A DNA stretch of 64,000 nt, from NCBI RefSeq assembly GCF_002750975.1, contig NZ_PEJS01000001.1, positions 1,798,001-1,862,000 of the forward strand, read 5' to 3'. This DNA comes from Stenotrophomonas indicatrix. GTDB lineage: Bacteria; Pseudomonadota; Gammaproteobacteria; Xanthomonadales; Xanthomonadaceae. Positions 41,480 to 44,994 of this stretch are shown piece by piece; position 1 is the stretch's first letter; each line of letters begins with the position of its first letter. The notes below the pieces were generated by a model. That model saw only the letters and a list, made by a program, of their open reading frames with translations. It had not been told where the DNA came from and did not search any database. Both the position numbers and the translations under genes were made by a program.

Positions 41480-41548
41480 TGCAGTAAAGCTTCCTTGCGC
41501 AGCGCGACGTATCATTGTCGGTTCGTTTTTCTCAACGGAATGACCCCC

Positions 41549-42298
41549 ATGAACTACATCCTCCCGCGCGCGACACTGCTGGCTTCGATCATTGCTGCAT
41601 CGTGCACGGCGCACGCCGCTCCCGTCCGCACGGTTGTGCTGGACAAGGTCGCTGATCAGGCGACCTCGATCGAAATCCGCCATGCGAAGGGCGCCGGCGC
41701 CGCCTCCGATCTTTTCACCACGCACTACTACACCGGTGGCGCGATGCTGATGGCCTGGGGCAATCAAAGCGTGCTGCTGCTCTGCAAGAAGTCGGCGTAT
41801 CTGAAGCTGCCGGGCATGAAGCCTGCGGCCAGCGAACTGCCGCTGGAGAAGCGGCAGATGATCGGCTACGAAGCGATGATGGCCGGCTACGGCAGCCTCG
41901 CTTCGATCAGTGGACTGGTGGATGGCAAGATCGAGGTGGCCGATGACGGCAGTGAAGTGCGCCGCCAGGCCGAGCGGTCGTGGGCCTACGGCGTTGAGCG
42001 TTACGACGTGATCAGCCAGCGCATGCCCAGTGGTGCGCTGCGCGTGCGCGCACTGAAGACCGCCACGGTGAACAACGCAAAGCCGTCCAAGCCGGGCGAC
42101 ACCTTCAGCACCGATGACGACCAGGCTGCCCGCCTGAGCGAGCTGGGTGCGGTGGGCGCCTGGACTGAAGTGACCATCCACGACACGCCCCGTCGAGGCG
42201 AGATCAATGCCGCCTTCCCGCTGAAGGACTGGGTGTCGGTGACGGGGGATCACGCCGCGACGGTGGGTGAGGCGCGGCGGATCAATGGGTGCGAATGA
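41549..42298 (+). CDS. Secreted hypothetical protein
   Basis: 249 residues from MNYILPRATLL with a signal peptide ending CTAHAAP. An ATG three codons upstream is possible. The mature part is mixed alpha/beta, with one Cys in VLLLCKKSAY and one at the C-terminus (NGCE). I recognise no family. It follows hmuV by 69 bases, but its role in iron uptake is not evident. Confidence 0.7.
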   Translation: MNYILPRATLLASIIAASCTAHAAPVRTVVLDKVADQATSIEIRHAKGAGAASDLFTTHYYTGGAMLMAWGNQSVLLLCKKSAYLKLPGMKPAASELPLEKRQMIGYEAMMAGYGSLASISGLVDGKIEVADDGSEVRRQAERSWAYGVERYDVISQRMPSGALRVRALKTATVNNAKPSKPGDTFSTDDDQAARLSELGAVGAWTEVTIHDTPRRGEINAAFPLKDWVSVTGDHAATVGEARRINGCE

Positions 42299-42361
42299 TC
42301 GTTCCTGGGTGATTGCTGCCCCGTTGCGCCTCATCGTTCCATCCATGTGCGCAATATTCAC

Positions 42362-42389
42362 TTGCGCGCCAGATTGACAGGTCTAGAAT
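42362..42389 (+). promoter_or_regulatory. Promoter of the EF-G paralogue leader
   Basis: TTGCGC, 16 bases, TAGAAT. The -10 box ends seven bases before an ATG, so the first leader ORF would be leaderless. A TTGACA at 42374 is too close to serve as the -35 for this -10. Confidence 0.5.
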
Positions 42390-42396
42390 GCGCCGC

Positions 42397-42486
42397 ATGA
42401 ACCGGATGCCGCTCCTGAAGTTTTTCACCCTGACCCGCGCAAGCGCGGAACGGGCGTGTCTGCCTGGAGCCCTACGAGGCCGCTGA
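42397..42486 (+). CDS. Putative 29-residue leader peptide of the EF-G paralogue
   Basis: The ATG stands exactly where the transcript should begin. The peptide starts MNRMPLLKFFTLTRAS and ends ALRGR at a TGA. The stop lies inside a hairpin (AGGCCGC-TGATC-GCGGCCT, 42477-42495) that is followed by a terminator-like stem. This is the layout of a transcription-attenuation leader. Coding status is inferred from position, not from homology. Confidence 0.5.
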   Translation: MNRMPLLKFFTLTRASAERACLPGALRGR

Positions 42487-42509
42487 TCGCGGCCTTCGCT
42501 GGACCATCC

Positions 42510-42537
42510 ACAGAGCGCCCTCCGGGGCGCTCTTTTC
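42510..42537 (+). terminator. Terminator-like hairpin in the EF-G leader (attenuator candidate)
   Basis: AGAGCGCC, a four-base loop and GGGGCGCTCTTTTCG: about eight pairs and four T. It lies after the leader peptide and about 140 bases before the EF-G paralogue start, so it would stop transcription before the gene unless overcome. Confidence 0.65.
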
Positions 42538-42585
42538 GTTTCCGTCCCCATCCCTCAACCCGCTCCACCGCAAGGAGAACGTGCC

Positions 42586-42615
42586 ATGCACCAGATCGCC
42601 GAGACCGAACGCTAG
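42586..42615 (+). CDS. Nine-codon upstream ORF before the EF-G paralogue
   Basis: MHQIAETER then TAG, preceded at ideal distance by the strongest ribosome-binding site in the leader (AAGGAGAA). The stop abuts a perfect ten-pair hairpin (CCGCACACGC..GCGTGTGCGG, 42616-42647). Its loop can alternatively pair (GCCAAC with GTTGGC at about 42656) close to the EF-G ribosome-binding site. This suggests translation-coupled control. Confidence 0.45.
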   Translation: MHQIAETER

Positions 42616-42679
42616 CCGCACACGCCGTTGCCAACCAGCGTGTGCGGCCCCCGAAGTTGGCCCAGCAGGAACCTTTCTC

Positions 42680-44722
42680 ATGAACACCAACACCCAGACT
42701 CTGTCGCGTCTTCGCAACCTCGGCATCATTGCCCACATCGACGCTGGCAAAACCACCCTTACCGAACGCCTTCTGTGGAAGACCGGCGAGATCCACCGCG
42801 TCGGCGAAGTGCATGACGGCAACGCGACCACCGACTTCTCGGCGATCGAGCGCGAACGTGGCATCACCATCGGCGCGGCCGCCGTGCACGCACAGTGGGC
42901 GCCACGCGATCTGCCGCTGCACCAGCTGACCCTGATCGACACGCCCGGCCACATCGACTTCGCCATCGAGGTCGAGCGCTCGCTGCGCGTGCTCGACGGT
43001 GCCGTGGCCGTGTTCTCGGCCGTGGACGGCGTGCAGCCGCAATCGGAAACCGTGTGGCGCCAGGCGCGCCGGCATGGCGTGCCGTTGATTGCGTTCGTCA
43101 ACAAGATGGATCGCATCGGTGCCTCGTTCGAGCGCGTGCTGGAGCAGCTGCAGGACAAGCTGCGGGCGCGCCCGTGGGCGCTGGGCGTGCCGCTGGGCAG
43201 TGAGGGCGACTTCCACGGCTGGGTCGACCTGGTCGATGGCCGCGTACTGCAGTGGCAGGACGCGGGCGCGGCGACGGTGACGGCATGGAGCGAGGCCGAG
43301 CGCGCGCAGTGGCAACCGCAGCGCAATGCGCTGGTCGAAGCCGTGGCCGACCATGATGATGTGCTGGCAACGGCATGGCTGGAAGGCCGTGACATCGACG
43401 CGGCGACGCTGCGCGCAGCGATCCGTCGCGCGACGCTGGCGGGCGCCGGCGTACCGGTGCTGGCGGGTGCTGCCTTCAAGGACAAGGGCATCGAAACACT
43501 GCTGGATGCGGTGGTCGATTACCTGCCGTCGCCGCTGGATCGTCCTGCGGTCACTGCCGAAGGCGAGGGCGGCGACGTCCTGCTGCCGCCGGACCCGGAC
43601 GGTCCGCTGGCTGGCCTGCTGTTCAAGATCACCCACCAGCAGCACGGTGCGTTGAGCTTCGTGCGGCTGTACTCGGGCACCTTGAGGGTAGGCGACAACG
43701 TGGCCAGCTCGCAGCACCCGCAAGGGCGTCGCATCAGCCGGCTGGTGCGCGTGCAGGCCGACCAGACCCAGGACATCGGGCAGGCCGTGGCCGGCGACAT
43801 CGTGGCGGTGCTGGGCTGGAAGGATGCGGTCAGCGGTGAAACGCTGAGCGGGCGAGGGCAGCCGCTGCGCCTGGAGAGCATCCAGGCACAGGCCCCGGTA
43901 TTGGCCTGGCGGTTGGAGCCGGCACGTGCGGCCGACCTGATCCGGCTGGCACAGGGCCTGGCAAGCCTGGCCCAGGAAGATCCCTCGTTCCGGGTGGAAA
44001 CCGATCGCGAGACCGGTGAAACCCTGGCTTGGGGCATGGGCGAGCTGCACCTGGAGGTGATGGTCGAGCGCCTGCGCAGCGAATGGAAGCTGGACATCGG
44101 CATTGGCGCGCCACGCGTGGCTTACCAGGAAACGCCGCAGCGTGCCGTGGAAGGCGTTGTGGGCCGCCTGGTCAAGCAGACCGGTGGCCAGGGCCAGTTC
44201 GCGCACGTGGTGCTGGATGTGGTGCCGCGCGACGACGGTGAGGTTGTGTTCAATGACCGCATCGTCGGTGGCGTGGTGCCGCGCAACTTCATCGCTGCGG
44301 TGGAGAAGGGCGTTCGTGCCGCGCTGTCGGAAGGCCCGCAGGGCCATCCGGTAGTCGGCATCGAAGTCAGCCTGGTGGATGGCCAGACCCACGCGAAGGA
44401 TTCGTCGGAGATGGCGTTCCATCGGGCCGGCAGCGAGGGCATCAAGGCCGCGTTGGCGGCCAGCGGTACGCAGCTGCTGGAGCCGGTGATGGCGGTGACG
44501 GTGCATTCGCCGTCCGCCTCGGTGGGGGACGTGGTGGGTGATCTGAATCGCCGCCATGGACGCGTTGCCCGCATCGACGACCAGGACGGTCGCGCCGAAG
44601 TCAGCGGATTCGCGCCGCTGGCGCAGCTGGTCGGGTATACGACCTCGCTGCGTTCGCTGAGCCAGGGACGGGCCAGCAGCGAATCGCACCTGCATGGCTA
44701 CGAGCCGGTGCGTGCAGCGTAA
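42680..44722 (+). CDS. Elongation factor G paralogue
   Basis: 680 residues with GTPase motifs HIDAGKTT, RGITI, DTPGH and NKMD, EF-G domains II-V and no C-terminal extension. It departs from housekeeping EF-G (shorter G domain, TLTERLLWKTGEIH at switch I), resembling the second EF-G copies and, more distantly, ribosomal-protection factors. The main fusA is normally in the str operon with rpsL/rpsG and tufA, absent here. A translocation, recycling or protection role cannot be told apart by eye. A terminator follows directly. Confidence 0.88.
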   Translation: MNTNTQTLSRLRNLGIIAHIDAGKTTLTERLLWKTGEIHRVGEVHDGNATTDFSAIERERGITIGAAAVHAQWAPRDLPLHQLTLIDTPGHIDFAIEVERSLRVLDGAVAVFSAVDGVQPQSETVWRQARRHGVPLIAFVNKMDRIGASFERVLEQLQDKLRARPWALGVPLGSEGDFHGWVDLVDGRVLQWQDAGAATVTAWSEAERAQWQPQRNALVEAVADHDDVLATAWLEGRDIDAATLRAAIRRATLAGAGVPVLAGAAFKDKGIETLLDAVVDYLPSPLDRPAVTAEGEGGDVLLPPDPDGPLAGLLFKITHQQHGALSFVRLYSGTLRVGDNVASSQHPQGRRISRLVRVQADQTQDIGQAVAGDIVAVLGWKDAVSGETLSGRGQPLRLESIQAQAPVLAWRLEPARAADLIRLAQGLASLAQEDPSFRVETDRETGETLAWGMGELHLEVMVERLRSEWKLDIGIGAPRVAYQETPQRAVEGVVGRLVKQTGGQGQFAHVVLDVVPRDDGEVVFNDRIVGGVVPRNFIAAVEKGVRAALSEGPQGHPVVGIEVSLVDGQTHAKDSSEMAFHRAGSEGIKAALAASGTQLLEPVMAVTVHSPSASVGDVVGDLNRRHGRVARIDDQDGRAEVSGFAPLAQLVGYTTSLRSLSQGRASSESHLHGYEPVRAA

Positions 44723-44778: not shown

Positions 44779-44868
44779 ATCCACGCATGGCGTGGATCTA
44801 CCGACCTTTGCATTGGCGGGGGTCTATCCACGCATGGCGTGGATCTACTTCCCACGCCATGCGTGGAT
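44779..44868. repeat. Three SMAG-type REPs
   Basis: Two direct copies of ATCCACGCATGGCGTGGATC-TAC (44779-44801, 44826-44848) and a shorter inverted one (about 44850-44868). They sit in a 272-base gap after the EF-G terminator. Nothing else recognisable lies there except the promoter region of the next gene. Confidence 0.8.
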
Positions 44869-44994
44869 GGGTGCCATCCGTGCGTCACGTGCCTGCATTG
44901 CATTGCAACAAAACTGCAGAAAAAGCTGGATTAAAGTGATGCCTCACGATAAATTGCGCACCCCCCGTTGCTTGCCGCCGCCCGCACCCTGCCC

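Follow-up and report, generated by a model that had tools for sequence, protein, structure and literature searches.

A stretch of 64,000 nucleotides (nt) from Stenotrophomonas indicatrix (contig NZ_PEJS01000001.1; hereafter the window) carries the gene of an elongation factor G paralogue (EF-G2), and we lean towards reading the ~280 nt between the upstream gene and EF-G2 as a two-stage leader through which ribosomes would control this accessory EF-G. The leader comprises, in order, a candidate promoter, a first upstream open reading frame (uORF1), an intrinsic terminator, a second upstream open reading frame (uORF2), a hairpin (S1), and a pairing (S2) between the S1 loop and a strand beside the EF-G2 start. 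A previous reading of the sequence alone (the sequence-only reading) had listed a −10-like box ending 7 nt before the ATG of a 29-codon ORF, a stop codon of that ORF within a hairpin, a terminator-like stem followed by four T, a nine-codon ORF with the region's best ribosome-binding (Shine-Dalgarno, SD) site and a TAG touching a perfect ten-pair hairpin, and a hairpin loop, GCCAAC, complementary to GTTGGC; every one of these features is present in the window at its place (Table 1). Comparison of loci added an antiterminator strand inside uORF1 (region 2), which was absent from that reading, and established the elements, their pairings, their spacing and their link to EF-G2.

Conservation of the leader and its link to EF-G2

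One hundred unique loci were collected, and three of them (L038, L075 and L127) were dropped for a missing terminator match or missing upstream sequence. Alignment A1, from uORF1 to the terminator, comprises 59 of 85 unique stretches, with 26 close relatives omitted and eight loci (L140-L147) kept apart; alignment A2, covering uORF2, S1 and S2, comprises 58 of 69, and the EF-G2 tree 52 of 66 loci. L139, because of its SD spelling, is in neither the collected nor the retained loci and was examined separately.

All 34 distinct EF-G2 orthologues obtained by protein search carry uORF1, region 2, the terminator, uORF2 and S2 in motif tests, in which region 2 was recognized by a loose motif and S2 by clade motifs. 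Using an exact motif scan of 84,980 named genomes, the uORF2 module was found at 59 loci, 58 of which lead straight into EF-G2, and the 59th is truncated at the end of the locus, yet starts like EF-G2. These loci belong to Stenotrophomonas, Xanthomonas, Lysobacter, Luteimonas, Tahibacter, order-level metagenome-assembled genomes and one record labelled Bacillus. The last (L116, titled Bacillus subtilis SK7B5) holds a Stenotrophomonas-type EF-G2 locus, 76% identical, and its assembly is probably contaminated or mislabelled.

The sequence-only reading had named a lack of conservation of the short ORFs or stems among relatives as a refutation, and this refutation fails because relatives keep uORF1 and uORF2 as well as the terminator, S1 and the pairing of GCCAAC with GTTGGC. 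The spacer that separates the terminator from uORF2 differs among loci in both length and content and provides an internal contrast to the conserved elements. Chance hairpins in GC-rich DNA are ruled out by the conservation in the 34 orthologues together with the compensatory changes described below.

A second home for the uORF2 module was ruled out as well, since an RNA model of the module gave 17 strong matches in 200 genomes, all at EF-G2 genes; this model missed the eight g91 loci introduced below, and the uORF1 part lies outside it. Four weak matches (E 0.0015 to 0.007) showed no EF-G motif within the fetched 0.8-0.9 kb, and a DNA search of 61 genomes of the genus returned no second leader, only short leader fragments and canonical EF-G starts. 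The leader travels with EF-G2 and not with the neighbourhood, because the four neighbouring proteins tested are present solely in Stenotrophomonas-type loci among the 59 scan loci, absence being a weak sign in the several loci that are short on one side. The terminator was also considered as that of the upstream gene, and this was ruled out, since the four neighbours were not found in the Lysobacter, Xanthomonas, Luteimonas and Tahibacter loci, where the leader remains with EF-G2.

In eight loci of one genus (g91, family f12) the layout is kept with unrelated letters: uORF2 has 9 codons, S2 is formed by GCCAGGGGC/GCCCCTGGC, S1, where present, uses the end of uORF2, and the distance from the uORF2 stop to S2 is 12-14 nt in the 6 loci measured. 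The single f3 locus likewise has a 9-codon uORF2, with an S2 of 13 bp, and S2 is longer in the g91 and f3 loci than in window-type loci. The g91 comparison points to a layout that is kept while its letters have changed.

Table 1. Positions of the leader elements and EF-G2 in the window
Feature	Positions	Strand	Remarks
Promoter	42362..42389	+	−35-like TTGCGC 42362-42367, −10-like TAGAAT 42384-42389, spacer 16; read by eye
uORF1	42397..42486	+	ATG 42397, 29 codons, TGA at 42484
P1 hairpin region inside uORF1, possible anti-antiterminator	42426..42449	+	CCGCG/CGCGG in the window
Region 2, antiterminator strand CGGGCGTGTCT	42451..42461	+	complementary to terminator 5′ arm
Hairpin around uORF1 stop, AGGCCGCTGATCGCGGCCT, 7 bp	42478..42496	+	
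Intrinsic terminator	42512..42537	+	stem 42512-42533, then TTTT; 5′ arm 42512-42520 = region 3
uORF2 SD sequence AAGGAG	42572..42577	+	
uORF2	42586..42615	+	MHQIAETER, 9 codons plus TAG
S1 hairpin	42616..42647	+	42616-42625 with 42638-42647, 10 perfect pairs; 11 counting the G of TAG
S2 5′ strand GCCAAC, in S1 loop	42630..42635	+	
S2 3′ strand GTTGGC	42656..42661	+	18 nt ahead of EF-G2 ATG
EF-G2 weak SD sequence AGGA	42667..42670	+	read by eye; energy −4.3
EF-G2 gene	42680..44722	+	680 aa

uORF1, the terminator and region 2

The transcription-level elements were assessed in A1. Between uORF1 and EF-G2 lies an intrinsic terminator, as in known attenuators; it is the single terminator-like site in 41800-43000, a count that proves nothing alone because the shuffled region averages 0.7, and its pairs form in 100% of 505 cells of the 59-row alignment. 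Region 2 pairs with the terminator 5′ arm (region 3) in 94.3% of these 505 cells. The core pair of this interaction (99-177) is UA in 29 rows, CG in 26, UG in 3 and another combination in 1, and the outer pair (103-174) is unpaired in 25 of the 59. Region 2 tracks both terminator arms, GGGTGC occurring with GCACCC and GGGCGC or GGGCGT with GCGCCC, so that the core pair switches together with the AU/GC pair of the terminator itself, with G-U intermediates in three rows (L051, L054 and L055). With this pairing and one coordinated base switch, region 2 has the properties of a mutually exclusive antiterminator. In all eight g91 loci GGGTGC is translated in another frame, giving R-G-C instead of R-V-R, which argues that the RNA and not the peptide is kept at region 2.

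The pairing energy of the antiterminator is unexceptional in the window, where 104 of 200 synonymous recodings pair equally well; across loci, 10 or fewer of 200 recodings were as good in 40 of 81. Masking uORF1 as far as region 2 gave region 2:3 pairing in the folding of 89 of 89 loci, the mask also removing the competitors upstream of region 2. The P1 hairpin is paired in one register in 74.8% of cells, while the window's clade uses another, and it is weak by folding; in its possible role of anti-antiterminator it holds region 2 in only 11 of 89 loci.

An apparently translated short ORF precedes the terminator, as in ribosome-mediated attenuators, judging from the pattern of substitutions. 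The uORF1 frame is open over alignment columns 23-110 in 59 of 59 rows, which says little alone because the other frames are open in 2 and in 56 rows; its length differences are of 3 and 12 nt only. Its front half of 7 codons carries a coding signal, with a synonymous fraction of 0.53 vs 0.10 and 0.29 in the other frames, and its back half, which contains region 2, carries none (0.41, 0.42 and 0.23 across frames). The uORF1 stop lies inside a hairpin of at least 5 bp in 46 of 76 loci, and this hairpin beats 95% of shuffles in 25 of the 76; for that of the window, 1 of 200 shuffles was equally good.

The candidate promoter was recognized by eye, and a consensus promoter scan of 41800-43000 reported none; CTTG and most of the −10 hexamer are kept among the aligned Stenotrophomonas rows. 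The claim that uORF1 is leaderless stands in part: the 7-nt spacing is confined to the window's own Stenotrophomonas clade, being present in 15 of the 28 rows shown (of 45 aligned), and the gap from the −10 box to the ATG is longer in the other 13. An earlier in-frame ATG at 42388 is probably not transcribed, because it overlaps the −10 box.

uORF2, S1 and S2 beside the EF-G2 start

Translation-level control is suggested by two start sites of unequal strength. The mean anti-SD energy is −8.5 kcal/mol for uORF2 vs −3.9 for EF-G2, and the uORF2 site is the stronger in 89 of 90 loci. Among the 58 rows of A2, uORF2 starts with ATG in 48 and GTG in 10, and its length is 9 codons in 41, 10 in 3, 14 in 12 and 22 in 2. 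A peptide-level signal was not found in uORF2 (synonymous fraction 0.20 vs 0.25 and 0.19); a kept SD sequence, start and mostly stop without such a signal are expected if translation and the position of the stop matter. Production of a uORF2-EF-G2 fusion by readthrough or frameshift was ruled out, as uORF2 and EF-G2 are in different frames and, in many relatives, a stop codon shortly upstream closes that of EF-G2.

The uORF2 peptide ends Glu-Pro before TAG in 10 of the 58 rows (L064, L066, L069, L070, L072, L073, L074, L085, L086 and L115) and Glu-Arg or Ala-Arg in 22, the window included. A C-terminal Pro-Pro motif is described as interfering with termination in PMC3834316.

The S1 and S2 pairs form in 97.0% of 985 cells of A2. 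Two-sided changes occur in 8 of 11 S1 pairs, and 0 of 500 shuffles scored as high, in a shuffle control that ignores relatedness. By parsimony, S1 underwent 12 two-sided compensatory changes, 18 one-sided changes that keep pairing and 16 that break or restore it. Compensatory changes had been proposed as a check of both hairpins, and they are borne out by the 12 inferred in S1 and by the terminator arms, which changed once together with region 2. The invariance of S2 in A2 is biased, because 19 of the 58 rows came from a scan demanding GCCAAC and GTTGGC; the 39 rows found by homology searches carry GCCAAC in 37 cases and GCCAAT in 2.

The uORF2 stop and S2 are separated by 14 nt in 62 of the 72 loci with a 9- or 10-codon uORF2, and by 12 nt in 5, 15 nt in 4 and 17 nt in 1. 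In PMC3834316, arrest of ribosomes at a stop codon gave mRNA that was truncated +12 nt past that codon, so that S1 would lie under a stop-arrested ribosome and S2 just outside it. Folding masked to the ribosome edge raised the mean S2 probability from 0.07 to 0.66 in these 72 loci.

These observations are best joined in a two-stage model. At stage 1, prompt translation of uORF1 would cover region 2, so that the terminator forms and the transcript ends, while ribosomes lagging before region 2 would leave it free to pair with the terminator 5′ arm, and RNA polymerase would read on. At stage 2, the uORF2 start site of the read-through mRNA would be strong and that of EF-G2 weak; a ribosome standing on the stop of uORF2 would unwind S1 and leave S2 just past its leading edge, and EF-G2 initiation would depend on uORF2 translation. 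We infer which states are on and off, the condition for induction, which in the sequence-only reading is impaired translation, and the direction of stage 2, with uORF2 translation favouring rather than limiting EF-G2; the folding models support the induction and the stage-2 direction only in part.

Several observations weigh against this model. The region 2/terminator switch counts as a single event on the 52-locus EF-G2 tree, from which L051, L054 and L055 are absent. In folding without a ribosome, region 2:3 pairing is already present in 63 of 89 loci and upstream sequence holds region 2 in only 11, so that a leader free of ribosomes is not clearly in the off state; for the same reason the simple ribosome-passage version of stage 1 given above is preferred. 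When the full terminator is included, it is the favoured fold in 61 of 89 loci without the mask and in 74 of 89 with it, and antitermination would have to be kinetic because equilibrium favours the terminator. At stage 2, S2 of the window itself reaches 0.02 in folding with a ribosome on the uORF2 stop, and placing a ribosome on uORF2 barely alters the accessibility of the EF-G2 start site (0.52 to 0.55, 89 loci). The uORF2 stop lies on or beyond the S2 5′ strand in 14 of 58 rows. L139 and L145 showed no counterpart of the S1 helix present in the other g91 loci, and in L147 no S1 was recognized; in L139, which is outside the 72 loci, S2 starts ~9 nt after the stop.

The role of S2 is where alternatives have to be weighed: S1 and S2 may form in turn or together as a pseudoknot, and S2 may help or hinder EF-G2. 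In the first, which we regard as doubtful though far from negligible, stage 2 is a repressor: S1 and S2, topologically a pseudoknot in which 7-9 nt separate S1 from the S2 3′ strand, would crowd the EF-G2 start until ribosomes translating uORF2 removed them. The covariation of S1 and the 14- and 22-codon forms of uORF2, whose ribosomes would fully open both S1 and the S2 5′ strand, fit such a role, whereas the distance from the end of S2 to the ATG is 14-20 nt in 80 of 89 loci and 21-26 nt in 8 more, which places S2 at the rim of an initiating ribosome, and some S2-bearing loci are without a clear S1. Nested folding cannot score a pseudoknot and hence gives no S1/S2 energy to lend it weight.

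In the second alternative, S2 would be an activator formed by ribosome action, by analogy with the RepY/RepZ system of plasmid ColIb-P9, in which a short upstream ORF is translated beside a loop engaged in long-range pairing immediately ahead of the start site; we rate this as unlikely. As in that family, the leader has an upstream ORF, here with a strong SD sequence, and a loop pairing just upstream of a weak start site, S2 is more widely kept than S1, and folding favours S2 on average when a ribosome stands on the uORF2 stop. Against an activator, the 12 uORF2 of 14 codons stop at the S2 5′ strand and 2 go beyond it, so that S2 could not form under the ribosome there, and S2 of the window stays low in the folding just described. 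RepY/RepZ also differs in being a plasmid replication control with an antisense RNA, and we know of no transcription attenuator in it.

Binding of the leader hairpins by an autoregulatory protein, either EF-G2 or a ribosomal protein, appears quite improbable. In its favour, attenuated leaders of the rpsL operon, a different one, have been predicted in Xanthomonas and others (PMC2965389); against it, EF-G2 stands far from the housekeeping EF-G, the g91 loci keep the layout and not the hairpin letters, and the near-fixed distance to the stop points to the ribosome. Least probable of all is uORF1 as an amino-acid attenuator that responds to the supply of leucine, proline or arginine. P-L-L at codons 5-7 (P in 58, L in 59 and L in 59 of 59 rows, with synonymous drift at codon 6) speaks for it; against it, P-L-L is absent from 8 of 8 g91 leaders and the controlled gene encodes a translation factor, not a biosynthetic enzyme.

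Related leaders, the EF-G2 gene and what the leader may mean

The proposed two-stage leader would be a variation on known two-layer leaders. Two layers of control had been called unusual in the sequence-only reading; they are not unprecedented, as vmlR of Bacillus subtilis is described as controlled by transcription plus translation attenuation (PMC9226507). The vmlR leader resembles that of EF-G2 in several ways: it has a uORF and an antiterminator that overlaps an intrinsic terminator, the loop of its antiterminator contains a hairpin, translation is controlled as well, and the gene under control encodes a factor that protects ribosomes. It differs in having one 3-codon uORF and an SD-sequestering stem-loop, whereas the present leader has 29- and 9-codon uORFs and a pseudoknot-type pairing, precedes an EF-G paralogue and occurs in other bacteria; antibiotic induction has been shown for vmlR, and the EF-G2 leader is known from comparison of sequences. 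The PA5471.1 leader of armZ in Pseudomonas aeruginosa (PMC12057347) combines a leader peptide with predicted terminators in a gammaproteobacterium, as at stage 1, with read-through proposed when ribosomes are impaired; its target is the anti-repressor of an efflux pump, and the accessible text describes no second uORF or pseudoknot. For the toiL uORF of topAI in Escherichia coli (PMC12121999), stalled uORF ribosomes are proposed to alter the structure around the downstream ribosome-binding site, in a system that is described as Rho-dependent, with a single uORF and no intrinsic attenuator. Among the literature matches listed, no title or abstract opening described an EF-G paralogue under such a leader, subscription journals being mostly outside the scope, and an Rfam search of 42300-42760 gave nothing above the gathering score (best 20.8 bits vs 47).

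The EF-G2 protein scores 731.7 bits against the TIGR00484 EF-G profile (cut-off 659.4), has the EF-G domains and shares 45% identity with the housekeeping EF-G encoded in the same genome. It is encoded at contig position 1840680, and the housekeeping EF-G at 502563, with another GTPase match, presumably EF-Tu, at 504780; unlike a gene behind a leader of the rpsL/str type (S7 control), EF-G2 lies outside the rpsL-rpsG-fusA-tufA operon. Among solved structures, the protein scores 626 bits against EF-G 1dar and 578 bits against 2rdo and others; we take 1dar to be a Thermus-type EF-G and 2rdo and the others to be E. coli-type entries, so that EF-G2 is closer in score to the Thermus type although its hosts are gammaproteobacteria.

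The window has named protein matches of 98% in Stenotrophomonas, and EF-G2 is patchily spread in the order of Stenotrophomonas, Xanthomonas, Lysobacter and Tahibacter. Orthologues were found in 19 of 149 genomes and 6 of 54 genera of the family (E <= 1e-190), in 25 of 200 genomes and 5 of 69 genera of the order (E <= 1e-200), and in 3 of 369 genomes of the class (E <= 1e-205), these being the window's own and two more of the same order. By DNA search, leader and gene occur together in 45 of the 61 genomes of the genus; 13 of the remaining ones match the query in short stretches at the EF-G start or leader, and 3 are without a match.

Around the leader, the upstream protein (41495-42298, +; part 41540-42295 tested) is without a Pfam or NCBIfam match and is 45-56% identical in relatives having a copy, whose EF-G2 is mostly ~90% identical; it would seem to be fast-evolving or differently inherited. 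Downstream of EF-G2, at 44780-44880, stand repeated inverted units around CCACGCATGGCGTGG, which we take to resemble the REP-type elements of S. maltophilia named SMAG. Near the window end, a C4 antisense RNA (Rfam RF01695; 60312-60396, +; 63.1 bits, gathering 45), presumably a phage regulator, suggests prophage DNA.

The reason why bacteria retain extra EF-G copies is often unclear. For EF-G2, a speculative and rather unlikely proposal is that uORF1 reports slow translocation, that is elongation, and uORF2 slow termination and recycling at a fixed stop, so that EF-G2 would be made when EF-G work is limiting, as a homeostatic back-up for the housekeeping factor. The conserved leader suggests, in sequence, what EF-G2 expression depends on, and makes the role of the paralogue directly testable with reporters. 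If the two-stage model is true, ribosome-sensing attenuators would reach beyond resistance genes to a core translation factor; the leader would then be a case of a second uORF with a conserved stop-to-helix distance controlling translation. That distance, nearly kept in g91 where the letters differ, is a sharp and testable constraint on ribosome-RNA mechanics.

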